Below are positions 3,453 to 16,990 of a stretch of DNA of 21,458 nt, piece by piece. Location: the IMG/VR virus record IMGVR_UViG_3300030943_000189, positions 1 through 21,458 of that record. One strand, 5' to 3'. The translations under genes and the position numbers were made by a program. The notes beneath the pieces are model-generated. The model saw only the letters and a list, made by a program, of their open reading frames with translations, was not told the origin of the DNA and made no database searches. Origin of the DNA: a virus. The stretch's first letter is position 1; every line of letters starts with the position of its first letter.

Positions 3453-3458
3453 AGTATT

Positions 3459-3818: not shown

Positions 3819-4198
3819 AGTTTAATGTACCTCTCTAACGTTGATGTTAACCAAGGTGTATTCACTCGTATAGGATCAGATAAGTAGTGTGCTTTTCTTC
3901 CAATAAGATGCTTGTACTTGATATTCTCATGTTGATCTAATGCATAATTGTTTCCCGTCTTAGGATTAACTGCACTAGACCTAAATTGAACCTCTACACT
4001 ACCACGATGCTTACGAGTAACAAATTCAGTACCCTTCATTAACCTACCAGTATCATATGGCACTTCACGATGTGCTTGTGCTATTACAATTTTGCCAAAG
4101 CGTGCATAGATGTTAGCAGGTGCAGTCTTCAACTTCTTATCAAAGGCTACTAGTTTACGCTGTGCGAGTCCAATGTTAGAACTGATAGTTACCTTCAT
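3815..4198 (-). CDS. HK97 gp10-like / minor capsid head-tail joining protein
   Basis: This 127-residue protein carries the VPYDTGRLMKG motif near residue 46. PYDTG.L-type motifs mark tail completion or joining proteins of the HK97 gp10/minor capsid families. Residues after about 85 (YALDQHENIKYKHLIGRKAHYLSDPI) match the usual second half, where an aromatic-His-Glu segment is followed by a Gly-Arg-Ala-x-Tyr-Leu segment. The protein is basic, as expected for one near DNA at the connector. It overlaps both neighbours by four bases (ATGA), so translation is coupled within the connector block. Confidence 0.8.
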   Translation of the reverse strand: MKVTISSNIGLAQRKLVAFDKKLKTAPANIYARFGKIVIAQAHREVPYDTGRLMKGTEFVTRKHRGSVEVQFRSSAVNPKTGNNYALDQHENIKYKHLIGRKAHYLSDPIRVNTPWLTSTLERYIKL

Positions 4199-4482
4199 GC
4201 TAACACCTTCTTGCCAACGACTATTCCACCTGCACTAACATAGTCTGATACACCTACTACAGGTCTGCCGTTTATACGATCACCTGCTTTTACGATAGCA
4301 CTAGTAGTGATAACCCATCCTGTTGTGACAATGTTTCCATCTGGCGAGATAACATTCTGCAATTTCTGCTTGCTTCTACACGCTATAGAAACTGGACTCT
4401 CAAAGATAGTGTTACCATTAACGTCTGTACTATCAGTAGATACTTCCAATGAAGCTGTCTGATGGTAGTAATCTGGTATCAT
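4195..4482 (-). CDS. Head closure / head-tail stopper-like minor capsid protein
   Basis: This 95-residue, mainly beta-stranded protein lies between the connector adaptor and the gp10-like gene, the usual place of the head-tail stopper that closes the portal channel. It begins MIPDYYHQTASLEV and has the layout of this group: an N-terminal strand, a Cys-Arg-Ser-Lys-Gln-Lys segment around residue 35, then a KAGDRINGRPVVGVSDYV part that looks like a small barrel. Start and stop overlap neighbours by four bases on both sides. The assignment relies on order and length. Confidence 0.7.
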   Translation of the reverse strand: MIPDYYHQTASLEVSTDSTDVNGNTIFESPVSIACRSKQKLQNVISPDGNIVTTGWVITTSAIVKAGDRINGRPVVGVSDYVSAGGIVVGKKVLA

Positions 4483-4937
4483 ATGATATCAAAGCCTCCG
4501 CTAGTCCACACCCACATCATTCTACGAGCCTCACTACTAGTTACTAGCAATGTAACCTCAGCGCCTTTTGCGAACGTCTCCGATAGATCATCAATGCTAT
4601 ATGAAGACACTCCACGAGATACAGGACTTCCAGTTACGCTACTAGCTGTAGTAAGAATGGCAAGAGCGTTAACTACCTGCGCTTCTTTCACGAGGTCAGG
4701 TACTACAGTGTTAGCATTTCTAGGAAAGGCGAGCACTTGTGTAATGTCTGTCTTACAGCCAGTGACTCTCAATCGTTCAAGTTCTTTAAGACTGCGAACA
4801 AGGAGTACACCCTTATCCGCGTCTTCAAGAGCATTCCACGCTACTCTGGATGGATCAGTAGAAATATAAAGTGAAGCAACAAGAGCATCAGCCTCCAGTA
4901 CAGTTATATAACTATTCGTGTTAACAATAATACTCAT
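4479..4937 (-). CDS. Head-tail connector adaptor (DnaT-like annotation family)
   Basis: This 152-residue protein opens with a YITVLEADALVASLY segment followed by VAWNALEDADKGVLLVRSLKELERL. That pattern is typical of phage proteins often labelled putative DnaT-like ssDNA-binding protein, but which stand directly after the coat gene and act as portal adaptors. The next segment (TQVLAFPRN) is also usual for the family. It is preceded by an AGGAGAGGAG site and is the first gene after the major capsid protein. I infer an adaptor that binds under the portal; DNA replication function is unlikely in this context. Confidence 0.78.
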   Translation of the reverse strand: MSIIVNTNSYITVLEADALVASLYISTDPSRVAWNALEDADKGVLLVRSLKELERLRVTGCKTDITQVLAFPRNANTVVPDLVKEAQVVNALAILTTASSVTGSPVSRGVSSYSIDDLSETFAKGAEVTLLVTSSEARRMMWVWTSGGFDII

Positions 4938-4958
4938 GTTGCTTCTCCTCTCCTTCTA

Positions 4959-6071
4959 TTAACCCAGTACGATCGTAGCGAGTTCGGGGAATACAGTCTT
5001 CATGCCATACAGGATGTCGATGGAGATTGTATTCTTCTTGTACTTCTGGTCGTAGCCTTCTACGACTCTGAGTCCGATACCGTTGTAAGAGGTGAAGTAG
5101 GCACTCTTATCAGACGGTAACTGCATAGGACGTGTTACGAATGCAAAGGCATTCTTGTTGAATACCATGTTCGCAACATGACTTGCGATTACAGTAATCA
5201 GTGCATCGTTGAGAACGATGGCAGGAAGGGGAGGATAAATGCCGATGTCCTGATCCGCTGTAGAGAGCGCGGATGCAGATGTTACAACGAAAGAAGTGGA
5301 GGTGATACCTGCGATGGTAAAGAGATCACCGACCTTGAATGCCGCTGTAAGACCGTCAACATGGAGTGACATAGCACCAACAGCGTAGTTAGCAACGAGG
5401 TCAACAGCAGGAACACCTGCCGCGCCAGTTGTGTGTGTAGGAACGGTCTGAGTAGTGTAGTTGGTGATACCAAACACACGACCGATCTCACCATCACGAA
5501 GGGCAGTAGCAGTACCGGCATCGGATACCTTGACGAGACCGTCAAGTACAACGAACTTAGCATCAGCGTTCTCGTCCCATACTGCAACACGTCCTGCCAG
5601 AGGCACTTTGTGATGAGTCAGCATCTTACGAGCATCGGCGAAGTCAGTGAGAGAGTCAGGAGTAGTTCCTGCTGTACCAACGAAGTACGGAATGTCTTTG
5701 TAGAGTGCCATGCACTCTGCATTGATCTTCTCAGCAAGTGCAATAGCCATACCATCAAGGATAGCGGCTCTGCGAGTTGCGCTGACGTTTGTTACCATTT
5801 CCTCAGCGGTCATTTCAACTGTAACGTCGGCAATCTTGTCGAGTGTTACAGGAACTGTACCGAGGGCGATATTCTGGATCTCAACACCGTTTGCTCTGTT
5901 GAAGGTCTTGCCTTCAAATACAGGTGGCACTTCGACCTGAATTGTATTACCCTCTTTTGCAAACTCAGCAGAGTAATCACGGTACATCAGGTTAGGCATG
6001 ATCAAGTTGTTTATCAGTCGAGGAAGAAGTTCTCTTGCAATCAACTGAATGTTATTGAATGTGTTTGCCAT
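4959..6071 (-). CDS. Major capsid protein, P22 coat-like with insertion domain
   Basis: This 370-residue protein forms the head shell. The N-terminus runs from a helical arm (IARELLPRLINNLIMPNLMYRD) into IQVEVPPVFEGK, a pattern found in the P22 gp5-like coat family. Helical spine residues about 85-130 and the C-terminal FVTRPMQLP and IDILYGMKTVFPELATIVLG parts fit the HK97 fold. Residues about 205-290 form a Thr/Ala/Val-rich beta segment between two parts of the core and correspond in position to the P22-type insertion domain. GGGAG lies upstream of the ATG. The scaffold gene precedes it, as expected. Confidence 0.9.
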   Translation of the reverse strand: MANTFNNIQLIARELLPRLINNLIMPNLMYRDYSAEFAKEGNTIQVEVPPVFEGKTFNRANGVEIQNIALGTVPVTLDKIADVTVEMTAEEMVTNVSATRRAAILDGMAIALAEKINAECMALYKDIPYFVGTAGTTPDSLTDFADARKMLTHHKVPLAGRVAVWDENADAKFVVLDGLVKVSDAGTATALRDGEIGRVFGITNYTTQTVPTHTTGAAGVPAVDLVANYAVGAMSLHVDGLTAAFKVGDLFTIAGITSTSFVVTSASALSTADQDIGIYPPLPAIVLNDALITVIASHVANMVFNKNAFAFVTRPMQLPSDKSAYFTSYNGIGLRVVEGYDQKYKKNTISIDILYGMKTVFPELATIVLG

Positions 6072-6089
6072 TGTTATTGTCTCCCTTCA

Positions 6090-6620
6090 TCATTTAGGCA
6101 TAATAGACTTGTAGTAGTCCTCGTCACTCATGGTAGAATCCGGTAATGCCGGTTTACCACCATCTTTTCCTGTGCCAGCAGGTGGTTCAGCAGGTGTCGT
6201 AATGTCGAACATGTACGGATCACTCAACTTCCATGCGGCTACTTGTTCGTCAATATCCTTAGTCAAATCCAGTTCCTTTAGGAGTAACTTCGGATTCCTG
6301 ACCTTTGCTTCGCGCAATTTTTCGGTAACTGCGTACCGCTGTTCCACCTTTGCTACTTCCGCGTCAACCTTTGCCTGAATCTCTTCAGGAGTAAGTCCTT
6401 TGACTTTTGCTGTCTTAGGAGTAGCAGGTGCTTTGTCCTCATCACCTTCACCATCATCGTCGGGATTAAGCTGTTCACGGAGTTCGTTACGCTGTTTGAT
6501 TACATCACTCAAACGTTTCTGAGGAACATAAGCTACGTCGTAGTCTTCTCCGAGTTCCAACTCAACCTGTGCGAATAGTTCAGGAGTTAAGGCTTTCTTT
6601 AAGATTTTTCTAATAGACAT
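6090..6620 (-). CDS. Capsid scaffolding protein
   Basis: This 176-residue highly charged protein sits directly before the coat gene. It starts with a short helical region (MSIRKILKKALTPELFAQVE), then has a Glu/Lys/Gln-rich, coiled-coil-like part with an acidic DDDGEGDEDK break near residue 55, a helical middle (EEIQAKVDAEVAKVEQRYAV), and a Pro/Gly-rich tail before a conserved-looking MSDEDYYKSIMPK end. Such low-complexity helical proteins are internal scaffolds removed during head maturation. GGAGGG stands before the ATG. No protease motif is visible in it. Confidence 0.83.
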   Translation of the reverse strand: MSIRKILKKALTPELFAQVELELGEDYDVAYVPQKRLSDVIKQRNELREQLNPDDDGEGDEDKAPATPKTAKVKGLTPEEIQAKVDAEVAKVEQRYAVTEKLREAKVRNPKLLLKELDLTKDIDEQVAAWKLSDPYMFDITTPAEPPAGTGKDGGKPALPDSTMSDEDYYKSIMPK

Positions 6621-6651
6621 ATTGACCCTCCTCAGTATTTAGTGTTACTGT

Positions 6652-8178
6652 TCACTGATCGTCCTTCGCGGGCGTTGCGGATTGTTCTTTAGGTTTACTG
6701 ACATCCGAGAAACCAAGTTCACTTCCCCTCTTCCTAGGATTCACTGTAGTAACTGCATTGGTCATTGGTTTAATAGGAGGTTCTTCTGCTACTAATTCCA
6801 ACCACTTATCAGCTTCTTCCAGTGTCTTATCGAAGAACTTAACGATCGCTTCTCTTGAAGGCATCAACTGTCTACCCTTAGTAGCCAGATTAGCATTCTC
6901 AAGTGTTTCTTTAGGATCGTCAGGTAAACCATCTTTCCATTCGACACTTATCGTGTCAGCGTCAATTCCTGTAAGTTGTTCGAAGAGTGTAATAACAGCA
7001 CTTGTCATGCTATTACTAACTCTCCGAACTTTAGCAAGGGGATTGACCATCTTAAACCGCATTGCTGTACCACTGATTGCCTGTCCAGTGCTACCTTCTC
7101 CACTGCCTAGTAATGCCGCACCCATTTCACTGAGTATGTACAGATGGTTAACTAGCATTTCACATTCCTTGAATGCAGAATCTATTTTACCATCCCATGT
7201 AAGGTACTCAGGTGGGAGGTCATTAGGGTTAAGTGCGTAATACTTACCCTTCTTGAAGCATAACTTGCCAGTCTTCTCATCCATCTCTAATAGTGTAGAA
7301 GGACCGTATAGCGATGGATCAGCATGTTGGTCTAAGATGTTACTTATCTGTGCTACTCTTACCATCAGTTCAACTAGTATACTGTCAATCTGATCGTAAT
7401 CGTCATAGCCGAATATATGACTGCTAGTACCAAACGCCTTGATGTTCTGAACTGCATTATCTTCATAACCAGTTGGTACTACAGTCGGTCCTGATATCTG
7501 TTTACCTAGTGTACCATCGCCACTACCATTGTTACTACCATTATACTCAAATACATATTCAGAGTAACTGCCATCAATGTGTACCTGAGCCTTGAGATAG
7601 AATATACCATCTTTAGATGTCTCTACCCATGCAAGAACTTGATGAGTAATAGTGTTAGTACCGTCGTTTGATACAATAGGAAACCACTCCATAGGAGACC
7701 ACACAGTAAAGTTCTTTTTCTTAGTCTTCGCATCAATGAACCAACGCCATATGGAGTCACCCATTCTGGAAAGATCAATAGCAGTACTGTACAGCTTCTC
7801 GTCAAAGTTACTCTTACGTCTTGCTGTGTTAATTAACTTCTGATTCTCATCAGTTGTAGTACTGATACTAGGATGTTCACCACACACGAGATCGGCAGTC
7901 TTCAATGACATCAAGCGCTGATAGTTAAGGAGCACAGGAAAGGATATCATGCTCTCAAAGTTCCCTATTACTCTTGTGATCCTTGTAGCCGCTTGCTGAT
8001 ATAGAGTTTCCTGAATACCAAAGTGGTTTCCTTCGAAGAGCATTTCATTCTCTTTGTAGCGCTTTATGCGTTCTCTTTGTGAGGCAGGAGGAAATGCCTG
8101 ACCATCCTTCAACCAGTCTAAGTCATGCAACATGCAATCGTACTTTTCATTCAGACTTCCGATACTATATGGATACAT
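6652..8178 (-). CDS. Portal protein (SPP1 gp6-like)
   Basis: This 508-residue protein is the dodecameric ring at the head vertex through which DNA is packaged. It shows the family layout: an N-terminal RIKRYKENEMLFEGNHF segment, a MSLKTADLVCGEHPSI segment near residue 110, a beta-rich wing with the WRWFIDAKTK part, the YDDYDQIDSILVELMVRVAQISNILDQHADPSLYGP helix near the middle, and the stem/crown region with TGQAISGTAMRFKMVNPLAKVRR. The C-terminus is Pro/Lys-rich. AAAGGAGG precedes the ATG, which overlaps the large terminase stop by one base (TAATG). Confidence 0.93.
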   Translation of the reverse strand: MYPYSIGSLNEKYDCMLHDLDWLKDGQAFPPASQRERIKRYKENEMLFEGNHFGIQETLYQQAATRITRVIGNFESMISFPVLLNYQRLMSLKTADLVCGEHPSISTTTDENQKLINTARRKSNFDEKLYSTAIDLSRMGDSIWRWFIDAKTKKKNFTVWSPMEWFPIVSNDGTNTITHQVLAWVETSKDGIFYLKAQVHIDGSYSEYVFEYNGSNNGSGDGTLGKQISGPTVVPTGYEDNAVQNIKAFGTSSHIFGYDDYDQIDSILVELMVRVAQISNILDQHADPSLYGPSTLLEMDEKTGKLCFKKGKYYALNPNDLPPEYLTWDGKIDSAFKECEMLVNHLYILSEMGAALLGSGEGSTGQAISGTAMRFKMVNPLAKVRRVSNSMTSAVITLFEQLTGIDADTISVEWKDGLPDDPKETLENANLATKGRQLMPSREAIVKFFDKTLEEADKWLELVAEEPPIKPMTNAVTTVNPRKRGSELGFSDVSKPKEQSATPAKDDQ

Positions 8179-9404
8179 TAGTAAGTTCCTCCTTTACTAT
8201 TCTGTCCGTATGTGTATATTGCATATCGATCGCTATCACAGGCATGATCATTAGTTTTTATAGGCTTGTCAATACCCATGACTTGTGCTTTCTCATCCCA
8301 ACAGTAGTTGCTATACTCTCTTCTTGAATTAACACAGGAGAGATCCATAGTGTAGTTCGTCTTTCCCAGTTCACTACCCATGAATCGAATACCATTTATG
8401 ACGTCATTATCGGCATCCTGTACCCTATACTGTCTTGATCGTAGTTCAGCTTTCCATGAGGATGCTGATGGATCGCAATAGATAGCGTGTAGTCTACCAT
8501 ATGGTATGTCTTTAATGAATAGATCGAAATCGTCACCGAATTCTTTATCAGTCTTCTGACGTCTGCTCTCTACTGCATCGTAATAGTACTCTTGCACCTT
8601 ATGATATGAACCATCAAGCATAATTGCTATCTTACTCCATGACATTACAGTAGATGTACCATAATCGCAACCGATAATGTACCTTGCTACATGCAATTGT
8701 TCATCAGGTGACAAGACTTTGACATGCCGCTTTTCGTCGAACATGTCGTAGATCATTCCATCAGCTACACACCACTCACCTAGTATAAACCTTCGATAGA
8801 AAACACCAGTGTACATCTGTTTGAGTGTCTTCACGTACTCAGGATCAAGATTAGGATTGTCGTCCATAGTGAAATGCCATACCTTCTTGTTGATGATCTC
8901 ATCGTTCATCAAGTAGTTGGTATAGAACCAGTGGTAAGGGCTGTCTGGATTGAGTGTTATGAAACACTTAGCATCTGCGATAGACATACGTGCCATTAGC
9001 TGACTAAAGAAGACTTCTGGATAGAGGTTTGCCTCATCACAGTACGCACCTGCTATTGTAGCACCACGTATCTTGCTTTCAGATTCTTCGTTGTTAGCAC
9101 CAATCACGTATATCCTACGATGAAAGAGTCTAAGTTCTCCTTTTTGTTTGTCAATCCATTTGTAGTTCTTCGGTCCTGCTAGGTCAAAGATGTCATTCAG
9201 TACGTTACGTTGTAGTGTAGCGACCGTCTTGCCTATCATGAACAGATCACCAGGAGGGCCATCTAGCAGATATGTTAACCAACGAACATCGACGTTGACT
9301 GTCTTCGACGATCGCACACTACCATGAAGAATGTTTAGTCTTGCATTACTGTTCTGGATAAAATCAAGTGCTTTAGCAGAAAACTTGCCCCATACGATTG
9401 CCAT
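8178..9404 (-). CDS. terL: Terminase large subunit
   Basis: This 408-residue packaging motor and DNA-cutting enzyme has all key elements. Walker A is GSVRSSKT at residues 28-35. A Walker B-like strand ends at Asp123-Glu124 (AGAYCDEAN), and a coupling-motif candidate TLNPDSP lies at 150-156. The C-terminal RNase H-like nuclease has acidic residues in IIGCDYGT (Asp247), IYCDPSAS (Asp311) and NDHACDSDRY (Asp386/390). The family is the PBSX/SPP1-type large terminase. A weak GGTGAG site stands before the ATG, two bases after the small subunit stop. The small subunit lies just upstream and the portal just downstream. Confidence 0.96.
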   Translation of the reverse strand: MAIVWGKFSAKALDFIQNSNARLNILHGSVRSSKTVNVDVRWLTYLLDGPPGDLFMIGKTVATLQRNVLNDIFDLAGPKNYKWIDKQKGELRLFHRRIYVIGANNEESESKIRGATIAGAYCDEANLYPEVFFSQLMARMSIADAKCFITLNPDSPYHWFYTNYLMNDEIINKKVWHFTMDDNPNLDPEYVKTLKQMYTGVFYRRFILGEWCVADGMIYDMFDEKRHVKVLSPDEQLHVARYIIGCDYGTSTVMSWSKIAIMLDGSYHKVQEYYYDAVESRRQKTDKEFGDDFDLFIKDIPYGRLHAIYCDPSASSWKAELRSRQYRVQDADNDVINGIRFMGSELGKTNYTMDLSCVNSRREYSNYCWDEKAQVMGIDKPIKTNDHACDSDRYAIYTYGQNSKGGTY

Positions 9405-9406
9405 AA

Positions 9407-9925
9407 TTACTCACCGTCGGGTATGGTATCATCATCATTATCTTTAGGTGGATTACGGAAGTTGGATACCAATTGTGCTAAAGCATTCAGACCAGTATTG
9501 GCTTCACCATTTGCAGACTGGTTGAGTTTAATAAGACCTTCGACTGATTCTCTGATCTTACTACCACAACCTAAGTATAATTCCACTAGGGGAGTTTTCA
9601 ATTGTACTGACATACTCGGATCATTGCTGTTAACAATGTTGTTGACCTTCTGCCCTACATTACGCAGAGTAATGAAGTACTCACTGGCTACCTGTCTGAG
9701 AATCTCTGCTTCATTGAGTTTGATCTTCTCAGTGATGCTTTCTGTACCACCAGTGACGTTCTGTACAGGAAGGTGCATTACACTGTGTACCTGTAGGGAG
9801 CGTACATCAACGTGATACTCTTCAGCAATGCTTTCGAGTGTGATCTTACTATCTCCCCAGTTACGGCACAGTAACGCTTCTTCAATTTCCGCTACCTTTT
9901 CGTGATTGCATATGATACACTGCAT
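9407..9925 (-). CDS. Probable terminase small subunit with CxxC-HxxxH zinc motif
   Basis: This 172-residue protein is first in the late operon, directly before the large terminase. It likely recognises the packaging site. The N-terminus has Cys3-x2-Cys6, then an IEEALL helix, a SIAEEYHVDVRSLQVH helix-turn-helix-like part, and His47-x3-His51. The pairs Cys3/Cys6 and His47/His51 could bind one zinc around a small DNA-binding fold, a layout known from other phage small terminases. The C-terminal half is helical and the last residues are acidic. AAAGGAG lies before the ATG. No annotated homologue is recalled by name, so the assignment rests on position and motif. Confidence 0.8.
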   Translation of the reverse strand: MQCIICNHEKVAEIEEALLCRNWGDSKITLESIAEEYHVDVRSLQVHSVMHLPVQNVTGGTESITEKIKLNEAEILRQVASEYFITLRNVGQKVNNIVNSNDPSMSVQLKTPLVELYLGCGSKIRESVEGLIKLNQSANGEANTGLNALAQLVSNFRNPPKDNDDDTIPDGE

Positions 9926-9952
9926 ACTAGTTACGCTCCTTTACATTAAAAT

Positions 9953-10001
9953 AAGTATTTAGTTCTGGAACTAACTGAATCAGTTTCAAAAAATAATACT
10001 T
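9953..10001 (-). promoter_or_regulatory. Nested dyads in the leader of the late transcript
   Basis: Between the leftward promoter and the small terminase gene are two adjoining inverted repeats: TTAGTTC-TG-GAACTAA (9959-9974) and AACTGA-A-TCAGTT (9973-9985). AAGTAT (9953-9958) and ATACTT (9996-10001) can pair around both. In RNA only one of the two inner hairpins, which share bases, can form fully. They could be operator sites for a repressor or a folded leader that controls late expression. Confidence 0.45.
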
Positions 10002-10011
10002 TTTATATCTA

Positions 10012-10040
10012 TTGACATTCTCTTACCCATAGTATATACT
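10012..10040 (+). promoter_or_regulatory. Rightward sigma70/sigmaA-type promoter
   Basis: TTGACA (10012-10017) and TATACT (10035-10040) are separated by exactly 17 bases. Transcription would begin near 10047 and run into the gene at 10101. The -10 box overlaps the -10 box of the leftward promoter. Confidence 0.85.
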
Positions 10041-10059
10041 AGATGGGGGAGTATGTCAA
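10031..10059 (-). promoter_or_regulatory. Leftward sigma70/sigmaA-type promoter for the late operon
   Basis: On the minus strand TTGACA (10059-10054) and TATACT (10036-10031) are separated by exactly 17 bases. Transcription would begin near 10024, about 100 bases before the small terminase start. Its elements are the mirror image of the rightward promoter. Confidence 0.85.
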
Positions 10060-10100
10060 CACTTTTAGAAGAATAAGGTAAAGAAAGTTGGTGTGTTTAT

Positions 10101-10436
10101 GTGGAAGTAGAACGTATCATACTAAGTAAGCACTGTGAAGCACTGTTGTTACTAGGAAAGTGGGTGTATAGAGTACTGATTCTTCGGGGTATTGAAGACA
10201 GGGATATCCTGTCTGCGCTTGCGGGAATGGGGTACTCTGGTACATTGAAAGAGTTGAAGGCTTCACTAATCGAGTATCTTAGTAGGAGTCCTATATACCT
10301 TGATATGATGACTCTAGGGCGTACATGGGAAAAGTGTGGTAATGGTCTAGCAGATGAGGATGGCGTGTACCATACTAAGACAGCCTGTTTGTACATCAGC
10401 GTTGGTGACTATATTTTCAAAATGGTCTCTCAGTAA
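10101..10436 (+). CDS. Small protein of unknown function, possible regulator at the promoter hinge
   Basis: This 111-residue protein is the first gene rightward of the shared promoter. The only in-frame start is GTG at 10101, with a weak AAGG/AAAG site upstream. The protein is basic to neutral, with a helical first part (CEALLLLGKWVYRVLILRG) and a segment around residues 30-55 (DRDILSALAGMGYSGTLKELKASL) that has the spacing of a helix-turn-helix. No family is recognised. Its stop codon lies within the loop of its own terminator, so it is made from a short single-gene mRNA next to the switch region. A regulator of that region is a reasonable inference, but not shown. Confidence 0.72.
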   Translation: MEVERIILSKHCEALLLLGKWVYRVLILRGIEDRDILSALAGMGYSGTLKELKASLIEYLSRSPIYLDMMTLGRTWEKCGNGLADEDGVYHTKTACLYISVGDYIFKMVSQ

Positions 10437-10456
10437 TGGGAGGCTATTTTTTTTTT
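10421..10456 (+). terminator. Rho-independent terminator overlapping the gene end
   Basis: AATGGTCTCTC and GGGAGGCTATT form an 11-pair stem (four G-U pairs) with a 6-base loop, followed by a run of ten T at 10447-10456. The stop codon of the preceding gene (10434-10436) is in the loop. Confidence 0.82.
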
Positions 10457-10543
10457 ATGCTCGATGCATCTTCTACTACTAGGACTAAATAGGTTACGAA
10501 CTGAAAAAAATTTCTCAGTGCGATGTGCAGGCATAGCGCTCAT

Positions 10544-10592
10544 CACCTCATATCACTCATTGGATGAGTGCATTATGCACAAAAAAGAGGTG
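10544..10592 (+). promoter_or_regulatory. Structured RNA leader that can mask a ribosome binding site
   Basis: CACCTC (10544-10549) can pair with GAGGTG (10587-10592), which contains the ribosome binding site of a 14-codon frame. Inside this stem lie a 7-pair hairpin (10554-10570, 3-base loop) and a GTGCATTATGCAC palindrome (10568-10580) that share three bases and cannot both form. This is the layout of a translational switch. The region 10457-10765 contains no larger gene. Confidence 0.45.
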
Positions 10593-10596
10593 TAAA

Positions 10597-10641
10597 ATGA
10601 CCGTCGATTTGGCTACACTAATGGATGCACTTGTAGTATAA
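10597..10641 (+). CDS. Possible 14-residue leader peptide
   Basis: ATG at 10597 is preceded by GAGG with 6 bases spacing and gives the 14-residue peptide MTVDLATLMDALVV. The binding site can be hidden by the upstream CACCTC. Such short frames in folded leaders are often regulatory, but chance occurrence cannot be excluded. Confidence 0.35.
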   Translation: MTVDLATLMDALVV

Positions 10642-10650
10642 TATAGGTAG

Positions 10651-10679
10651 TTGATAGTACATGGTAAATAGAGTATAGA
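10651..10679 (+). promoter_or_regulatory. Candidate promoter for the small-gene array
   Basis: TTGATA (10651-10656) and TATAGA (10674-10679) are 17 bases apart. The -35 matches 5 of 6 and the -10 matches 4 of 6 consensus bases. It would start transcripts near 10686, about 80 bases before the gene at 10766 and past the terminator at 10456. Confidence 0.4.
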
Positions 10680-10720
10680 AAGGATAGAGTATAGAATAGG
10701 TACAGGATAGGAATGGTACA
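10668..10720 (+). repeat. A/G-rich 16-base tandem repeats
   Basis: ATAGAGTATAGAA occurs at 10668-10680 and 10684-10696, a 16-base period. GGTACA then occurs at 10699 and 10715, also 16 apart. The tract is strongly purine-biased on the plus strand. Confidence 0.55.
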
Positions 10721-10765
10721 CAGTATGTCGGGCATTGCTATGAGCAATGAGAAAGTAGGTATGGT

Positions 10766-11248
10766 ATGAAGAACGTTTATGTATGTGAAAAGTGTGGTAT
10801 TCAATTTGATGGTGACAATGCATATAGTGAATGCAGTGAGCACGAAAACACCCATCAGAATTTGAACTATTTCCCTGACTGGTCAAACAAACTGAATGAA
10901 CACAGCACGTTTACACCTGATGGGCGCGTCCCGTCAATGATTAACATTGGAACTACTGATAACAACTACACCGATGGTGTACGCGTCACTGATATTCACA
11001 TTTACACTTACAAACTAGTACGTGAAAACACTGAGTTGTCCAAACAGTACACAGAGACGGCACGCGTTGAACAAATAGAATCAGACAGAGCACAAGCTGT
11101 ACAGGACGCAAAGAAAGCCGAAATGATATCGTTCCTCACTGAGCACGGTCAGGACGTCAAGCCAAATGCATACTTCTATACAGTACGTGACCAGTATGAT
11201 GCATACATGGCAATTGGTATTGATCCCGTAGTCAAAACCGAAGAGTAA
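10766..11248 (+). CDS. Zinc-finger-type protein with helical C-terminus, unknown function
   Basis: This 160-residue protein opens with YVCEKCGIQFDG (Cys7-x2-Cys10), and a Cys-Ser-Glu-His-x3-His arrangement near residues 23-29 completes a possible zinc site. A long helical Glu/Gln/Ala-rich segment follows at about 85-125 and could form a coiled coil. It begins the long plus-strand gene array. An imperfect AGTAGG lies before the ATG, and a CATTGCT/AGCAATG hairpin (10733-10749) is just upstream. Codon choice is richer in G/C-ending codons than most neighbours. No family is recognised; a nucleic-acid or protein-binding adaptor is possible. Confidence 0.8.
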   Translation: MKNVYVCEKCGIQFDGDNAYSECSEHENTHQNLNYFPDWSNKLNEHSTFTPDGRVPSMINIGTTDNNYTDGVRVTDIHIYTYKLVRENTELSKQYTETARVEQIESDRAQAVQDAKKAEMISFLTEHGQDVKPNAYFYTVRDQYDAYMAIGIDPVVKTEE

Positions 11249-11250
11249 TT

Positions 11251-11529
11251 ATGACATGCGAGTGTAAGCGCACGGTCTTACACAGTAAAGGATGGTACAG
11301 GATGAATAGAAAGATAGTCTCATATAAGACTGCCGTAGAAATGTTATCACTAGGATATAGAATCATGCATAATGAGATCAGTGAGACTATTCTGATATAC
11401 CGTGATCCAGATAACGATTGTTATTCACTGCGGCATGATACACTTCACAAGCTAGGAACTACTGGTATGATACAGGAACATAACTATCAGCCATGGTCTT
11501 ATTTTCACAACTATCAAAAGAAAGTATGA
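11251..11529 (+). CDS. Small protein of unknown function
   Basis: This 92-residue protein begins two bases after the preceding stop; GAAGAG five bases before the ATG is a weak site. A second in-frame ATG at 11302 follows an AAAGGA element and could be the true start, giving about 75 residues (MNRKIVSYKTAVEML). The product has an amphipathic helix (AVEMLSLGYRIM) followed by strands and a DPDNDCYSLRHDTLHKL segment. No catalytic motif or family is recognised. Confidence 0.68.
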   Translation: MTCECKRTVLHSKGWYRMNRKIVSYKTAVEMLSLGYRIMHNEISETILIYRDPDNDCYSLRHDTLHKLGTTGMIQEHNYQPWSYFHNYQKKV

Positions 11530-11538
11530 GGTAGAAAC

Positions 11539-11823
11539 ATGACTATTACCAAACAGAAAAAAAATGCTATTGAGAAAATTCCTATGTGGAAAAAATCTAC
11601 TGCTACATCCCTGAATCAGGTGTACGGCAAACACAGTAAAGCGAAAGATGAAACATTCAGCTACTGTCGTAACTTGTGCTATGATCATAAGGGTACAGAT
11701 CTCAAGATAGTCACTCATAACGTGAATATCTTCACGGCAGGATTTCAGTATACAGACACTGATACAGGCGTCCTGATGTTTATGCTTATTACACCATCAT
11801 ATAACTGCTCTGTTGAAATGTAA
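11539..11823 (+). CDS. Small conserved-type phage protein of unknown function
   Basis: This 94-residue basic protein is preceded by GAGG with 7 bases spacing. It has a Lys-rich start (MTITKQKKNAIEKIPMWKK), then TSLNQVYGKHSKAKDETFSYCRNLC and strands ending with FMLITPSY. The SLNQVYGKxSxAKxxxFxYC arrangement resembles a recurrent small phage protein type, as far as I recall, without a known role. It follows the 11251 gene with a short gap, indicating a shared transcript. Confidence 0.78.
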   Translation: MTITKQKKNAIEKIPMWKKSTATSLNQVYGKHSKAKDETFSYCRNLCYDHKGTDLKIVTHNVNIFTAGFQYTDTDTGVLMFMLITPSYNCSVEM

Positions 11824-11905
11824 TAGTATCAACAACTGGTACAGTGCTCATAGTACTGTATCAGTGATTGGTAATATTAATATAGAAAGTGAGGATAATA
11901 CACTC

Positions 11906-12043
11906 ATGAAGACACTGGTAGAATGTCACAACTACGGATGCACGTATAACAAGATGGCAGAATGTAAAGCATCGTTTGTACGTATGGATGAACATGGTCT
12001 TTGTACCACTGATACACAGAAAATTGATGAGGTGTTCAAATGA
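11906..12043 (+). CDS. Small Cys-rich protein, DUF1540-like
   Basis: This 45-residue protein starts at the ATG at 11906, with GAGG 11 bases before it; a longer in-frame extension back to 11813 lacks a binding site and overlaps the previous gene. The sequence shows Cys-x4-Cys-x7-Cys followed by a fourth Cys (CHNYGCTYNKMAEC ... LC). That layout fits DUF1540-type mini-proteins, thought to bind metal. It overlaps the next gene by four bases (ATGA). Role unknown. Confidence 0.72.
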   Translation: MKTLVECHNYGCTYNKMAECKASFVRMDEHGLCTTDTQKIDEVFK

Positions 12044-12243
12044 AGTATTTTCAAGTGAGACCTGAATTTGACCAGAGAAGAACATGCCCTAAACATTTTC
12101 TGGTAGCAAATGAATTGTATACAACGCGTGAAATGAAACGGTTAACAGTGCCTCTGTACTGTGTTACTGAAATACACATACCAGAGACGAAAGTATATTG
12201 GTGTTTCGGTGTACGGTTTGCATTTGATGAGGTGAAGACATGA
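12040..12243 (+). CDS. Small conserved-type phage protein
   Basis: This 67-residue protein starts in an ATGA overlap, with GAGG at the usual distance. It reads MKYFQVRPEFDQRR and carries FLVANELYTTREMKRL, then short strands with IPETKVYWCFGVRF. The layout ELYT-x-x-E followed by IP-x-x-K-x-Y/F-x-F-G-x-R-F recurs in small phage early proteins that I recall from other Firmicutes phages. No biochemical function is known to me. The next gene also overlaps by four bases. Confidence 0.78.
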   Translation: MKYFQVRPEFDQRRTCPKHFLVANELYTTREMKRLTVPLYCVTEIHIPETKVYWCFGVRFAFDEVKT

Positions 12244-12335
12244 ACGGGTTCACATTGCTACTATTGATGTCCTTAGTGTTCCTAGCAGTATGGTATCTAC
12301 TCAAGATACTTGATAAACTCAATCGGAGGCGTTAA
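12240..12335 (+). CDS. 31-residue single-span membrane peptide
   Basis: ATG at 12240 overlaps the previous stop (ATGA) and follows GAGG. The product has a hydrophobic stretch (TLLLLMSLVFLAVWYLL) and a basic end (KILDKLNRRR), which predicts one membrane span with the C-terminus inside. The next gene's GGAGG lies in its last codons. Function unknown; possibilities include a membrane anchor or a modulator of host envelope proteins. Confidence 0.65.
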   Translation: MNGFTLLLLMSLVFLAVWYLLKILDKLNRRR

Positions 12336-12336
12336 C

Positions 12337-12609
12337 ATGCATAACTATGAGATCCATCACAACGGTAAAGAATACACACGTATCAGTAAAGCACAGGCAA
12401 AACAACTGCACAGTATCCTAGTGCCTGTATACATGGATGGATGTAAAATGATGCCGTTTAACATGTTTGGTACTACACATGAACTAACAGGGTACAATGA
12501 TCTTATTGCTCAAGGTGGATCATTTGAGACATACGTACAATCGTTTACATACTACAACTGTAGTTATGAGCAAGGCTACTACCCTGCATTCTACACGGAG
12601 GTGAAATAA
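12337..12609 (+). CDS. Small protein of unknown function
   Basis: This 90-residue protein starts at an ATG with GGAGG 7 bases upstream; an earlier in-frame TTG at 12310 has no site. It reads MHNYEIHHNGKEYTRISKAQAKQLHSI, then a middle with YMDGCKMMPFNMFG, then an aromatic-rich end (FTYYNCSYEQGYYPAFY). The beta-rich, aromatic character suggests a small folded domain. No family is recognised. It is the last gene before the internal promoter at 12637. Confidence 0.78.
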   Translation: MHNYEIHHNGKEYTRISKAQAKQLHSILVPVYMDGCKMMPFNMFGTTHELTGYNDLIAQGGSFETYVQSFTYYNCSYEQGYYPAFYTEVK

Positions 12610-12636
12610 AAATTATGTGAATTGATTGAAAAAGGC

Positions 12637-12665
12637 TTGTACTTCCCTACATTGTATGATATAAT
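12637..12665 (+). promoter_or_regulatory. Strong internal promoter with extended -10
   Basis: TTGTAC (12637-12642), 17 bases, and TATAAT (12660-12665) preceded by TGA (TGn extended -10). Transcripts would begin near 12672 and carry a GTTGCA/TGCAAC hairpin (12685-12701) close to the 5' end, which may stabilise the mRNA. Confidence 0.82.
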
Positions 12666-12725
12666 TGTCTTAGATGAAAAGAGAGTTGCACTCTATGCAA
12701 CACACATTATCAGGAGGATAAAAAC

Positions 12726-13202
12726 ATGAACAGAGACACTATTTCTACTGCACTTGCCAACGAGACACTTAGTCTCAAGAAACTTTCTCAGGAAACCAAA
12801 ACACCCTATTCTACCTTGCTCAGAGCGATTCATGCACCCGTCGCAGGTCAGGCATATGATCCTGATGCAGTCAACATGGACGCCATTGAGACAGCACTCA
12901 AGCTGAAAATGGGCGCTGAGGCTTTCGCTATGTACGACTTCGAAGCACTCATCGAAGAGAATTCCGGTTCTGCTACACTCGATCTGACCATCGGTAACAA
13001 GATCACCATTAAGCGTGGTGGTGGACTCAGAGACGTTGCCAGTATCTACACAATCGTGTTCGTTACTGCTACACACGTCGTACTTGATTCCGATACATCC
13101 ACTGAGCCGCGTGTTGTTGGTATCAAGACACTGAAACTCTTCGGAGCACAGCCTGTCGAAGTCGAAGCCGCAGACGTTCCTCAGACACCCGACGCTGAGT
13201 AA
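12726..13202 (+). CDS. Putative nucleic-acid-binding protein, paralogue of the 19757 gene product
   Basis: This 158-residue protein has its own promoter and an AGGAGG site, so it is probably well expressed. Codons are also more G/C-ending than in the surrounding genes. Residues about 15-35 (LSLKKLSQETKTPYSTLLRA) resemble a helix-turn-helix. A P-x-x-G-x-x-Y-D-x-x-x-x-N motif follows at 39-50, and a C-terminal beta-rich part (residues about 88-140) contains FVTATHVVLD and PRVVGIKTL. The same order appears in the product of 19757-20377. I infer a DNA- or RNA-binding regulator or packaging-type protein; no named family is recognised. Confidence 0.82.
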   Translation: MNRDTISTALANETLSLKKLSQETKTPYSTLLRAIHAPVAGQAYDPDAVNMDAIETALKLKMGAEAFAMYDFEALIEENSGSATLDLTIGNKITIKRGGGLRDVASIYTIVFVTATHVVLDSDTSTEPRVVGIKTLKLFGAQPVEVEAADVPQTPDAE

Positions 13203-13214
13203 TTGAAGATGTTA

Positions 13215-13254
13215 TGATAGTGGCGTGCTCCATGAAGGGCACGTCACTTAATCA
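13215..13254 (+). promoter_or_regulatory. Strong RNA hairpin without U-run
   Basis: AGTGGCGTGCTC (13219-13230) pairs with GGGCACGTCACT (13237-13248) over 12 base pairs with a 6-base loop. TGAT and ATCA extend it past a 2-base bulge. No T-run follows, so it may protect the 3' end of the 12726 message or mark a processing site rather than end transcription. Confidence 0.6.
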
Positions 13255-13277
13255 TATCAGGTGAAGGAGTAGAACAC

Positions 13278-13361
13278 ATGATTAGACTCATCATAGCTTT
13301 ACTATCAGGATTCCTATTCGGATTCAAGAAGCAAGGGAAGGCGAAGGGTAGATACAAATGA
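13278..13361 (+). CDS. 27-residue hydrophobic/basic peptide
   Basis: ATG at 13278 is preceded by AAGGAG with 8 bases spacing. The peptide has a hydrophobic start (IRLIIALLSGFLFGF) and a Lys/Arg-rich end, like a small membrane peptide. It overlaps the next start by four bases (ATGA). Function is unknown; toxin-like or membrane-modulating peptides have this profile, but nothing proves it. Confidence 0.58.
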   Translation: MIRLIIALLSGFLFGFKKQGKAKGRYK

Positions 13362-13510
13362 GATGTGAACAGTGTAATGAACACATACAGCACAATGATC
13401 TACAGTACACATACACGGATGAGACAGGGGAAGTACACAATTTTGATTCCAGTGATTGTCTCATCGAGTACTTACAGGAAATTCAAGTAGTCGAAGTGTT
13501 TCGCCCATAA
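13358..13510 (+). CDS. 50-residue zinc-binding-type protein
   Basis: The frame from 13358 starts in an ATGA overlap. The protein opens MRCEQCNEHIQHND (Cys3-x2-Cys6) and has His27 and Cys34 (FDSSDCLIEYL), in the manner of small treble-clef or MYM/TRASH-like zinc modules, where a CxxC is followed by a strand and a C-terminal Cys at a helix start. The helix LIEYLQEI follows. Function unknown; it closes the transcription unit before an A/T-rich gap. Confidence 0.65.
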   Translation: MRCEQCNEHIQHNDLQYTYTDETGEVHNFDSSDCLIEYLQEIQVVEVFRP

Positions 13511-13515
13511 TGTAC

Positions 13516-13565
13516 TGATCGTAGATCACACAATTTTTTTACTCTAAAAAGAAAAAGTCTTTTTT
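13516..13565 (+). terminator. Probable weak terminator pair in an A/T-rich gap
   Basis: TGATC-GTA-GATCA (13516-13528) is followed by seven T (13534-13540). Just beyond, AAAAAGA and TCTTTTT (13546-13552, 13558-13564) form a second A/U-rich hairpin with a T-run. Both stems are weak. The rest of the gap (13566-13796) holds no supported gene. Confidence 0.45.
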
Positions 13566-13675
13566 AATAACGCACACACTCATAACTTCCTCTATATAGA
13601 AAGCTGAAAATCACCTTATTAAAGTAACTGAATGAATCTGTACATTCTCTATTAGTTAGTACATTATGGTTTTTT

Positions 13676-13704
13676 TTGACTAGTTACACATATAGCTTTA
13701 CGTT
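13676..13704 (+). promoter_or_regulatory. Weak candidate promoter
   Basis: TTGACT (13676-13681), preceded by a T-run, and TACGTT (13699-13704) are 17 bases apart. The -10 has only three consensus bases, so this is tentative. It would serve the genes from 13797. Confidence 0.3.
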
Positions 13705-13796
13705 AACACACAGTGAAAGAGGATGTGGATGCGCTAGGCAATCAGTTTTGCGTTTTTTGTACAAACTATCCGCGTACTGAAAGGAGGATCACAATA

Positions 13797-14036
13797 ATGC
13801 TCTACTACAAACTACTAGTACGACTCAAATCAGGTTATGCTTCTCGCTACTTTGTTACTGACACCAACGAAGCAATGCTCCGTTACATCGACCATTACTA
13901 TCCTATTCCTAAATTCCACTACAATCTCACTCTGATTCAACCATTCCAATTATCTGATCCATTCTATCTCGTGAACGATATCAAATTCAAGCTGATAGAA
14001 TCCATATCGCACAAAGAGCACGCTGATAAAGCCTGA
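13797..14036 (+). CDS. Small protein of unknown function
   Basis: This 79-residue protein starts at an ATG with AAAGGAGG and 9 bases spacing. In-frame codons back to a GTG at 13713 lack a site and are excluded. It reads MLYYKLLVRLKSGYASRYFVTDTNEAMLRYIDHYYP, a strand-strand-helix pattern with many Tyr/Phe. This resembles small ferredoxin-like folded phage proteins. No motif allows a function to be named. It opens the second part of the small-gene array after the 13511-13796 gap. Confidence 0.78.
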   Translation: MLYYKLLVRLKSGYASRYFVTDTNEAMLRYIDHYYPIPKFHYNLTLIQPFQLSDPFYLVNDIKFKLIESISHKEHADKA

Positions 14037-14068
14037 TCTTCAATATACTACAGGAGGGCAATAATCAA

Positions 14069-14440
14069 ATGGACTACAAGCATCTTACACCAACTGAGGC
14101 ACGTATCATAACCATAGACCACGAACAGTGCATTAACAAGCACGGATGTACTCCATGTGTCCTAGCTACCAGACAGGAAGGACAGAGACTACCATGTTGG
14201 AAGGTCACGAATATAGCCGCGAAAGTATTGTTATCAGTCGGAGAATTCGCCGCTATTAGAAACGTGTATGTAGGCTATGATAGAGACGATAATAGAATCT
14301 ATAAGGTGACGTACAGGGACATGTGCATCAAACCTTCGTACATCAGAGACACTTTTCTACAGGCTATTCTGGAAAGAGATCCACCTGTCAAGCTGATAAA
14401 TTGTGGTAGTCTTCATGCCCTGTACAGAAAGAAGGTGTAA
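14069..14440 (+). CDS. Four-cysteine EAR-family protein, long form
   Basis: This 123-residue protein follows AGGAGGG. Residues 8-50 hold a motif shared with the next gene and with that at 20377: E-A-R, eight residues, Cys, a short gap, Cys-x2-Cys, about 12 residues, Cys, then a helix with Val/Ala. The four cysteines probably bind zinc. The remaining about 65 residues (SVGEFAAIRNVYVGYDRDD ...) are extra and unlike the shorter paralogues. No known family is recognised. Tandem arrangement with 14443 suggests local duplication. Confidence 0.82.
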   Translation: MDYKHLTPTEARIITIDHEQCINKHGCTPCVLATRQEGQRLPCWKVTNIAAKVLLSVGEFAAIRNVYVGYDRDDNRIYKVTYRDMCIKPSYIRDTFLQAILERDPPVKLINCGSLHALYRKKV

Positions 14441-14442
14441 TA

Positions 14443-14613
14443 GTGAAACGAGACCTAAAGAGCATGACACCTGATGAAGCACGGAAGATCATAGCAGATA
14501 GTATACGGTGTCATGATCCCGAACGACACTGTAATGCGTGTTCCAACTTCTTACTGTTTCCAGAGTACCTATGTGACAATGTTGTAAAACATGCGGAAGG
14601 AGTAGTACAATGA
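14443..14613 (+). CDS. Four-cysteine EAR-family protein, short form
   Basis: This 56-residue protein starts at GTG 14443, two bases after the preceding stop, with GAAGGTG as binding site. It reads MKRDLKSMTPDEARKII, then Cys23, Cys30-x2-Cys33 and Cys44, followed by DNVVKHAEGVV. Both the TP-x-EAR start and the cysteine pattern match the preceding gene, and the pattern recurs at 20377. It overlaps the next gene by four bases (ATGA). Probably a mini zinc-binding protein; target unknown. Confidence 0.75.
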   Translation: MKRDLKSMTPDEARKIIADSIRCHDPERHCNACSNFLLFPEYLCDNVVKHAEGVVQ

Positions 14614-15002
14614 GTGTATCATTTATTGGTGAGAGACACATGATTAAGCCTAGGGGATCAGAAGAGGAAACGTACATACCTATACTGTACATGCCACAAG
14701 ATATCAAGAAGGATGCATTTGAAGAGAGCACCAACAAGGGGCAATGGAGGAAGTTGTGCATAGAAGCATCCGTTAACCTCTTAGAGGACACAGCCGGACA
14801 CATGTATGCACTACCTAATCAGCCAGACAATGACATCACAGACTTTAACATACAGGAAGTTCAATTGAATATCATCCATATGTTAGCAAGTATACTACAG
14901 TACTTAGTTAACAGTACATCATGGCATACTAAGCACATGCAGGTGTTCGACAAACAAGAACTAAGGAATAGACTCGAAAGAGTTATGATGATTCTGAGGT
15001 AG
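14610..15002 (+). CDS. Protein of unknown function
   Basis: This 130-residue protein begins in an ATGA overlap with AAGGAG at 7 bases. The N-terminal part is charged and beta-like (GSEEETYIPILYMPQDIKK); the C-terminal part is helical, with a long IQEVQLNIIHMLASILQYLVN helix and a basic ELRNRLERVMMILR end. That combination suggests oligomerisation. No motif or family is recognised. The next gene follows after four bases. Confidence 0.77.
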   Translation: MSVSFIGERHMIKPRGSEEETYIPILYMPQDIKKDAFEESTNKGQWRKLCIEASVNLLEDTAGHMYALPNQPDNDITDFNIQEVQLNIIHMLASILQYLVNSTSWHTKHMQVFDKQELRNRLERVMMILR

Positions 15003-15006
15003 TACA

Positions 15007-15318
15007 ATGAGCAAAAATCTGAAACTGAAATGGTACGTTATAGAATTACTGATACTTAGAGCACTGTTGAAGAAAGCATCTAAGGCAGTAGACCACACCA
15101 CTGACACGGTAATTGAACTGATGAGCACTATATATTCTGAACATCTGGAACTTCTTGATCACTCGATTACTCTCAAACCGAGCACGACCACTCCTGTCTT
15201 CAATCATACCGCTTTTAAGAAAGACTATCCATATCTGTATGATCAATACATGCAGAAACGTAATAGAGCATCATACTTGACCATCAGACTGCTTGACAGT
15301 AGAAAGAAGAGGAAGTAA
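15007..15318 (+). CDS. Small helical basic phage protein
   Basis: This 103-residue protein is preceded by GAGG with 7 bases spacing. It is mainly helical, with an LKKASKAVDHTTDTVIEL segment and a C-terminal FNHTAFKKDYPYLYDQYM part followed by a basic RASYLTIRLLDSRKKRK end. A C-terminal F-x-x-x-x-FK-x-x-x-P-x-LY-x-x-Y pattern recurs, as I recall, in small Firmicutes phage proteins that accompany recombination or replication genes. No function is known. The next gene follows directly. Confidence 0.78.
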   Translation: MSKNLKLKWYVIELLILRALLKKASKAVDHTTDTVIELMSTIYSEHLELLDHSITLKPSTTTPVFNHTAFKKDYPYLYDQYMQKRNRASYLTIRLLDSRKKRK

Positions 15319-15320
15319 TT

Positions 15321-15557
15321 ATGGATTTACTACTGTATGTAGAAGGTATACCAGAGGATGAAGAGAATGGTGGTATCTACTTTAATCCGAATGAATTGCA
15401 TGTGATCTTTCATAATGTAGAGAACTGTCTCACAATGGAGATCGGTAATAACACATGGAAGGTAGAAGCAGGATCGTTCTCACTAGCATATGCTAGGACA
15501 ACTGAGATATCAGCCAAAGGTCAGATACTAGTACAGTCACTGAATCTAATCAAGTAA
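15321..15557 (+). CDS. Small beta-rich protein of unknown function
   Basis: This 78-residue acidic protein starts two bases after the previous stop, with GAGGAAG upstream. It has an acidic start (LYVEGIPEDEENGGIYF), then alternating strands (LHVIFHNVENCLTMEIG, WKVEAGSF) and a C-terminal strand (QILVQSLNLI). It is probably a single beta domain. No catalytic or metal motif is seen. The gene belongs to the co-transcribed array. Confidence 0.75.
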   Translation: MDLLLYVEGIPEDEENGGIYFNPNELHVIFHNVENCLTMEIGNNTWKVEAGSFSLAYARTTEISAKGQILVQSLNLIK

Positions 15558-15566
15558 GGAGTGCAT

Positions 15567-15707
15567 ATGATACTGAGTGCATTAGATAAAGCTGAGAGAG
15601 AATTTCATAAACAGTACATGCAGGAGCAGACTCCATGTATTGTGGCATTCAATAAGAGAAGGGAGAAAGGGTATGGCGATCATTCTGAAAAAGTACAAGT
15701 GTCGTGA
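15567..15707 (+). CDS. 46-residue protein of unknown function
   Basis: ATG at 15567 has AAGGAG five bases upstream, one of the better sites in the array. The product starts MILSALDKAEREFHKQYMQE, a helix, and has a basic NKRREKG stretch. Its end overlaps the next gene by 35 bases in another frame. The tight fit between neighbours and strong site support it as a real gene. Confidence 0.6.
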   Translation: MILSALDKAEREFHKQYMQEQTPCIVAFNKRREKGYGDHSEKVQVS

Positions 15708-15876
15708 GTGTGGTGATGTATTTGAAGTAGCAGTATCATCTACTACACTAGAACCGAAGTATATCCACACAGCTACAGACCATTTTTTTACTAAGCACTA
15801 TCATGAGTATCCTGAGTGCTACGGTCTAGCTGATTTAATAGGAATGGGGTATCCGAACGATGGTAATAAGCGTTGA
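15673..15876 (+). CDS. Small zinc-ribbon-type protein
   Basis: This 67-residue protein starts at the ATG at 15673 (GGGAG upstream); an in-frame TTG extension at 15640 has no such site. It shows YKCRECGDVFEVA (Cys-x2-Cys), and downstream His residues in HTATDHFFTKHYHEYPEC with a Cys at the end. The latter could complete a zinc site of the Cys2His2 type. It overlaps the preceding gene by 35 and the next by 17 bases. Target and role are unknown. Confidence 0.7.
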   Translation: MAIILKKYKCRECGDVFEVAVSSTTLEPKYIHTATDHFFTKHYHEYPECYGLADLIGMGYPNDGNKR

Positions 15877-16150
15877 ACAAGCTACTACTATACTGCCACT
15901 GATCACTAACACAGAACGTATGACCATGCGGTATGCATACTGGGCACGATTCGGAAGTAATAATGATGATGAGATCATGCTACAGTGGTACGTGAACAAT
16001 CAGCTTAAAGCAATAGAGAGCACCAGATATATCGCAGGACTTCTCAGTACAGCAGGTGCTATCACAGAAGAACAGACCTTAGCATATCTTGAAGAACAGG
16101 GGATAGACAGTAATGGAGGACAAGGATCTCAAGAGACTGATCACGAGTAA
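15860..16150 (+). CDS. Helical protein, paralogue of the 16252 product
   Basis: This 96-residue protein begins at ATG 15860 inside the end of the previous gene, with a GGGG element ten bases before. It reads MVISVEQATTILPLITNTERM, has Tyr27 and Gln42-Trp43-Tyr44, and an acidic end. The spacing of Gln7, Ile11, Asn17, Met21, Tyr27 and QWY matches the product of 16252-16554. Probably helical; function unknown. Confidence 0.72.
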   Translation: MVISVEQATTILPLITNTERMTMRYAYWARFGSNNDDEIMLQWYVNNQLKAIESTRYIAGLLSTAGAITEEQTLAYLEEQGIDSNGGQGSQETDHE

Positions 16151-16262
16151 CCTAGGTTACTGGAAGGAAAAGCAGAGAGTATCAAAATTCGTATCAAAGC
16201 ACTGTGTAGATCAAATAGACCTTTGGGAAGAAATCTATAGGAGGATATACGATGGAACTTGA
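16113..16262 (+). CDS. 49-residue basic protein filling an overlap
   Basis: ATG at 16113 follows AGGGGA at nine bases. The product reads MEDKDLKRLITSNLGYWKEKQ and continues with a helix containing WEEIYRRI. It overlaps the preceding gene by 38 bases and the next by 11. It covers the only stretch (16151-16251) otherwise free of coding sequence in this part, which supports it. Function unknown. Confidence 0.6.
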   Translation: MEDKDLKRLITSNLGYWKEKQRVSKFVSKHCVDQIDLWEEIYRRIYDGT

Positions 16263-16802: not shown

Positions 16803-16990
16803 AGTTAACAGCAAAGGTCGTACTCGAATACCAGAAGAAGTGGAGGACGTCAGATTTCACAGCAGGTACTTTTAAGAGCATAGGGAATGAACTAGTGGAA
16901 AAGTATGATCTGACTCCTAGACAGGCGATTGACATAATTAACAATCAGGATGTACTGAGTATACTAGCAAGCAAGGAGGATGAAGCATGA
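16799..16990 (+). CDS. Small helical protein of unknown function
   Basis: This 63-residue protein starts in an ATGA overlap with GGGGAGG upstream. It has two helices: KVVLEYQKKW and a C-terminal LTPRQAIDIINNQDVLSIL, separated by a linker. The layout resembles small helical adaptors or anti-type proteins, but no motif allows a call. Translation is coupled both ways by four-base overlaps. Confidence 0.73.
   Translation: MKLTAKVVLEYQKKWRTSDFTAGTFKSIGNELVEKYDLTPRQAIDIINNQDVLSILASKEDEA

Follow-up and report, generated by a model that had tools for sequence, protein, structure and literature searches.

The stretch of DNA analyzed here (the window) is a virus record of 21,458 bp, in which the late genes (terS, terL, portal, capsid, and further genes) run leftward from position 9925 on the minus strand, and small genes run rightward from position 10101 on the plus strand. 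The principal late genes are as follows:

9407 to 9925, minus strand: terS-like small terminase, the first late gene, assigned by position (32–46% identity with the same gene of relatives; no match in family searches)
8178 to 9404, minus strand: large terminase subunit, terL (family search)
6652 to 8178, minus strand: portal protein, late operon (family search)
4959 to 6071, minus strand: major capsid protein, late operon (family search)

A second contig of 35,885 bp (G001) overlaps both ends of the window, the first overlap being identical where compared and the second having two differences in 2,950 bp, and these overlaps imply a circularly permuted genome of approximately 41.2 kb when the two are joined. 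The late-strand genes span some 18 kb, from the hinge between the two gene blocks as far as a gene of lysis-like type, the product of which has an NlpC/P60 and a PG-binding domain. The opposite strand of the remaining 23 kb or so encodes a primase-helicase, a Sak4-like annealing protein, an exonuclease, an SNF2 helicase, and a dGTP/dATP pyrophosphohydrolase, and, given the gene content of each strand, the labels “late” and “early/replication” are fair. The proteins searched included no recognizable RNA polymerase or sigma factor of the phage, and transcription by the host polymerase is therefore assumed.

A pattern search of the whole window found the sequence TTGACA-N17-TATACT twice, at 10012–10040 on the plus strand and at 10031–10059 on the minus strand, with the center of symmetry lying between 10035 and 10036. 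The features of the hinge are:

10012 to 10040, plus strand: predicted early-direction promoter, −35 TTGACA at 10012–10017, 17 bp spacer, −10 TATACT at 10035–10040 (start at about 10047, from the spacing)
10031 to 10059, minus strand: predicted late-direction promoter, −35 TTGACA at 10059–10054, 17 bp spacer, −10 TATACT at 10036–10031 (start at about 10024, from the spacing)
10031 to 10040, unstranded: perfect palindrome AGTATATACT, which contains both −10 boxes, overlapping at 10035–10036
10009 to 10062, unstranded: 48 bp dyad, with arms TTGACATwCTC flanking the palindrome (single-stranded DNA fold −10.7 kcal/mol, z −4.4)
9987 to 10011, plus strand: A/T-rich stretch directly 5' of the early −35 (88% A+T versus 72% 5' of the late −35)

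The first-pass annotation had described precisely this arrangement, with the same boxes and spacing on both strands about one exact center and a 2 bp overlap of the −10 boxes, and the search reproduced it exactly. Its reading of the locus as a symmetric divergent promoter, with starts predicted from the spacing at about 10047 (plus) and 10024 (minus), is also supported. The A/T-rich stretch may be an UP element, which might bias the hinge toward the early direction; in the relatives L160 and L165, introduced below, the A+T content upstream of the two halves is approximately equal. The promoter scans gave no second late-strand promoter of comparable quality, which makes the late half, the only strong one found on that strand, likely to be essential. 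A terminator was searched for in the late leader, as a possible attenuator, and none was found.

Promoters were scored by the sigma-70/A consensus, on the assumption that the host uses it. By this measure, the hinge pair were the only sites to match 11 of the 12 bases in a consensus scan of positions 1500–21458 (approximately 20 kb), in which promoter-like sites overall barely exceeded chance (63 found versus 50.9 ± 7.1 expected), and the two halves, at 14.52 each, had the highest weighted score on either strand of the window. Two copies of TTGACA-N17-TATACT contrast with none in 100 dinucleotide shuffles. The symmetry continues beyond the boxes, where the dyad matches at 18 of 27 positions, a value reached by 41 of 10,000 shuffled versions of the 420 bp junction.

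The orthologous junction was compared in relatives whose TerL is 57–66% identical, and which have the same divergent layout as the phage of the window. Three of them carry mirror promoters of 48–50 bp at the terS/early junction, as in the window. These are L160 (TTGCATTCCTCCTACATTTATTATATAATAAGAATAGAAGGAATGCAA), with TTGCAT-17-TATAAT on both strands and a dyad of 20/27 (0 of 10,000 shuffles), L165 (TTGCTTTTTCCCTAAATATATTATATAATATAAGTAGAAAAAAAGCAA), with TTGCTT-17-TATAAT on both strands and a dyad of 22/27 (0 of 10,000 shuffles), and L179, with a 50 bp version of TTGCTT-17-TATAAT on both strands, a −10 overlap of 4, and a dyad of 19/27 (5 of 10,000 shuffles). Their −35 boxes match TTGACA at only three of six positions, this being the E. 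coli consensus, which may not be that of the host, and the strength of these promoters is thus a guess. A weaker mirror promoter, with 18 bp spacing, is present at the same junction in L162. When mirror promoters were sought blindly across 1.1 Mb of terL loci, these junction elements and the window's own took four of the top five places by arm identity, and none exceeded 11/20 in the reversed-sequence control. The arms differ across phages and match within each of them, the true pairing of the eight arms ranking first of the 105 possible ones when 22 columns are compared, and among the best 3 to 7 for sub-regions. The near-perfect promoter sequence in each direction and the retention of the mirror layout by distant relatives, in different letters, make the hinge element probably a genuine two-way promoter, with both directions predicted.

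The alignment with related phages that the first-pass annotation had proposed gave a divided answer, as the symmetry is kept in L160, L165, and L179, and is not kept elsewhere. The palindromic −10 is retained in L166–L168 with the late −35 only, the early −35 being absent, while L018, L019, and L020 have a late promoter only. In L158 (1905–2004), TTGACA-17-TACAAT on the plus strand and TTGACA-17-TATACT on the minus strand stand face to face at the same junction, about 47 bp apart, so that the transcripts would overlap by some 30 nt at their 5' ends. Each of the four mirror phages belongs to a different sublineage of the TerL tree, which implies either an old feature that was lost repeatedly or one that was gained repeatedly, two histories that the tree does not separate. 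The close relatives found in IMG/VR were only 100% identical copies (L007, L010, and L011), which are for that reason uninformative on conservation. Bacterial genomes yielded no useful prophage relatives, only one distant match in Streptomyces, and among annotated phages there was no DNA match, a TerL identity of at most approximately 38%, and no match to the early protein encoded at 12726–13202 (see below).

Two good promoters may simply have come to overlap in an A/T-rich gap, given that palindromic −10 boxes are common and that ten IMG/VR contigs match the general mirror pattern, among them three copies of this phage and three others with one start-codon coincidence in common. The shuffles of both the window and the junction speak against such an accident, and the recurrence at the orthologous junction of L160, L165, and L179 already disfavors it; we consider it very improbable. 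Counts of the mirror pattern over viral contigs were dropped as proof of function, as the artefact was large in the control scan. The reversed −35 box, TGTCAA, is often an ATG-TCA-A gene start behind a ribosome binding site, with a peak at the wrong spacings of 27–37, and the mirror matches L003–L005 are partly of this start-codon type. By hand count of clean offsets among the viral-contig matches listed, TTGACA mirror sites with 16–18 bp spacing are enriched approximately threefold, by lineage, relative to wrong spacings. The start-codon artefact is to be expected in any mirrored-TTGACA search.

Two further contigs have mirror patterns. Contig L307 fits a TTGCNT mirror pattern, but is not homologous to any of the phage proteins tested, and was judged to be a chance match. 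Contig L309, a viral contig likewise without homology to the phage proteins tested, contains a near-perfect 50 bp palindrome between divergent ORFs (2041–2090; TTGACACTTGACTATAGGTAAATTATAATATGCCTATAGTCAAGTGTCAA), with TTGACA-17-TATAAT on both strands and a spacer symmetry of 13/15.

The transcript that the early half would produce is defined by two features, and other early genes have promoters of their own:

10101 to 10436, plus strand: first early gene, encoding 111 aa from a GTG start codon, no family match (ORF list and family searches)
10419 to 10450, plus strand: strong intrinsic terminator, a 14 bp stem of −16 kcal/mol (−16.8, with z −5.7, for the fragment), followed by a T run
12637 to 12665, plus strand: separate predicted early promoter TTGTAC-17-TATAAT with an extended −10 (TG), just 5' of the gene at 12726 (weighted scan)
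19701 to 19729, plus strand: separate predicted early promoter TTGACT-17-TACAAT with TG, 5' of the paralogue at 19757–20377

The terminator begins inside the 3' end of the first early gene, the stop codon of which lies within the hairpin, and an early-direction transcript from the hinge is predicted to end mostly there, after some 0.4 kb. A comparable terminator lies right behind the first early gene of L165, and L160 has a hairpin in this place, the T run of which is poorer. A 12/12 extended −10 promoter (TGNTATAAT) is found directly 5' of the Sak4-like gene (L300, 7429–7401, minus strand), and a similar 12/12 extended −10 promoter precedes an ORF of similar size on the early strand of the genome of L179 (L302, 14811–14783, minus strand). 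The claim that each initiation at the hinge selects either the structural operon or the early genes is not supported by this layout, because the early transcript would meet the terminator and further early genes are preceded by predicted promoters of their own. As read from the DNA, the alternatives are instead the structural operon on one side and, on the other, a short early transcript with any read-through.

The shortness of this product, the gene of which is not recognizably conserved (homology among the first early genes of different phages is in general not demonstrable), raises the question of whether the late half alone is functional. The early half would then be a by-product of a self-complementary −10 and of templated mutation, in which one arm is copied from the other through a quasi-palindrome or hairpin. 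Template switching can homogenize quasi-palindromes, and could in this way have homogenized the two arms, and L166–L168 and L018, L019, and L020 do with a late promoter alone. The mirror −35 stands at exactly 17 bp in four sublineages, however, and is lost in others, which argues that these boxes are not mere inherited junk. An early-direction ORF, moreover, lies 3' of the element in each mirrored relative, that of the window having its own terminator. A late half functioning alone is quite unlikely.

A two-way promoter of this geometry has precedents in bacteria. The divergent starts of bacterial bidirectional promoters are spaced by 18, 10, or 23 bp, the 23 bp spacing being a common class, and two polymerases cannot occupy such a promoter in both orientations together (PMC12825309). 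The hinge resembles the promoters of Warman and Grainger (PMC12825309, PMC10268837) in its overlapping −10 boxes on opposite strands, in steric exclusion, and in the frequent position of this class between divergent genes. Its starts are predicted, from the box positions, to lie 23 bp apart, and its two TATACT boxes have 2 bp in common. By geometry, the element is a variant of the 23 bp class, the novel parts being its two consensus −35 boxes and the mirrored junction of the relatives. It differs from the E. coli bidirectional promoters in its location at a phage late/early junction and in extended dyad arms that co-vary in relatives. The basal activity of the five natural E. coli cases tested was too low for competition, and strengthening one −35 of a bidirectional promoter represses the divergent RNA (PMC12825309). 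Unlike these five, the hinge has a perfect −35 box and a 17 bp spacer in each half, and its two TTGACA boxes predict, by analogy with the “up” mutants, the opposite of low activity. As both −35 boxes are consensus, and by the published rules above the threshold, polymerase competition may be expected as the default.

In the A2c/A2b-A3 region of phi29, promoters of both phases share a single intergenic region and settle, with the host polymerase, whether transcription is early or late, and inverted repeats lie over the −35 boxes (PMC3100819); the hinge is similar in these respects. The phi29 promoters have no common −10, and the −35 of A3 is poor and dependent on p4 (PMC3100819), whereas both halves of the hinge look strong unaided; where a phi29-type late promoter has a poor −35 and depends on an activator, the late half here reads TTGACA-17-TATACT. 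No homologue of p4 or p6 was identified, and the conserved early protein that might stand in for a p4-like regulator has no family or fold match. The divergent or face-to-face switches of the lambda type share with the hinge the mutual interference of opposed promoters, but their −10 boxes are not shared. Lambda PR/PRM, P2 Pc/Pe, and 186 pR/pL serve as switches for lysogeny, in which the repressor gene lies at the site and the promoters are separated by tens of bp. The neighbors of the hinge are terS and the 111 aa ORF without a family match, and no integrase or repressor was recognized among approximately 25 proteins searched, which are part of the ORFs of the genome.

The conserved early protein is encoded close to the hinge:

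12726 to 13202, plus strand: early protein, candidate hinge regulator, present in most relatives, the helical N-terminal part of which resembles a DNA-binding domain

In L165, L162, L020, L166, and L179 it is again encoded near the hinge, in every case on the early strand. The proteins of 12726–13202 and 19757–20377 (plus strand) are paralogues, with a helical N-terminal part and a small beta C-terminal part. At about position 17636 of L302 (minus strand), the promoter 5' of a second 12726-like gene repeats the late half of the hinge, including the downstream TATAATATAATCAATAAAA, and looks duplicated.

It is possible, though on balance unlikely, that the dyad is primarily an operator, on the two identical arms of which a dimeric phage regulator would control both directions, the symmetry of the promoters following from that of the operator. 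Each arm would cover one −35 together with the region in which the opposite transcript starts. The arm identity does not stop at the hexamers but reaches into the spacer (6, 9, 9, and 6 of 13), and co-varies in each phage, the candidate protein recurs near the hinge of the five relatives named above, and a second 12726-like copy in the genome of L179 sits behind a promoter repeating the CTTGCTTTTTT arm of the hinge. Protein p4 of phi29, in addition, binds inverted repeats over the early −35 boxes of the early/late region (PMC3100819). The spacer symmetry, however, is only modestly above the similarity between phages, with 6 of 105 pairings equally good, and near-copies of the arm elsewhere in the phage of the window look unconnected with promoters. 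The protein received no DNA-binding family assignment, and the fold search, with a model of medium confidence (pLDDT 70), returned only insignificant matches; having no confident family or fold, it is a lead only.

We thus favor, as the probable reading, a 23 bp two-way promoter of the housekeeping sigma factor, the near-consensus halves of which compete, so that the early half brakes, or sets the ratio of, the sole strong late promoter. The host RNA polymerase would load either way round on the overlapping −10 boxes. Leftward initiation at about 10024 would lead into the terminase-capsid-tail operon of approximately 18 kb, and rightward initiation at about 10047 would yield a short RNA from the first small early gene, usually terminated at 10419–10450. 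As both halves are near consensus, a polymerase in one orientation should block the other. The first-pass annotation had proposed mutual exclusion and a built-in either/or control, and the exclusion holds as a steric effect at each initiation, as argued for this class (PMC12825309), but provides no stable either/or state without a regulator. Exclusion lasts for one initiation, so that the hinge on its own would set a ratio rather than a latched state. A strong, unregulated late promoter would be odd at time zero of a lytic program, and a regulator is therefore probably needed, with only a candidate at hand; a phage or host factor would eventually tip the balance between early and late. A further reading, which we hold to be rather unlikely, is that the orientation of the host polymerase is itself the regulated quantity, with co-evolving arms, early-facing occupancy that throttles the late promoter, and one early regulator that reads both arms and flips the orientation.

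According to published work, polymerases do not as a rule compete at natural bidirectional promoters, which are too weak, and the hinge is an apparent natural case in which both directions lie beyond the competition threshold. Competition at this site would set the amount of the structural transcript in the phage. The relatives offer a ready series (mirror, half-mirror, separated, and late-only) for probing the role of the symmetry, and the hinge may provide a natural test case of RNA polymerases competing for one site.
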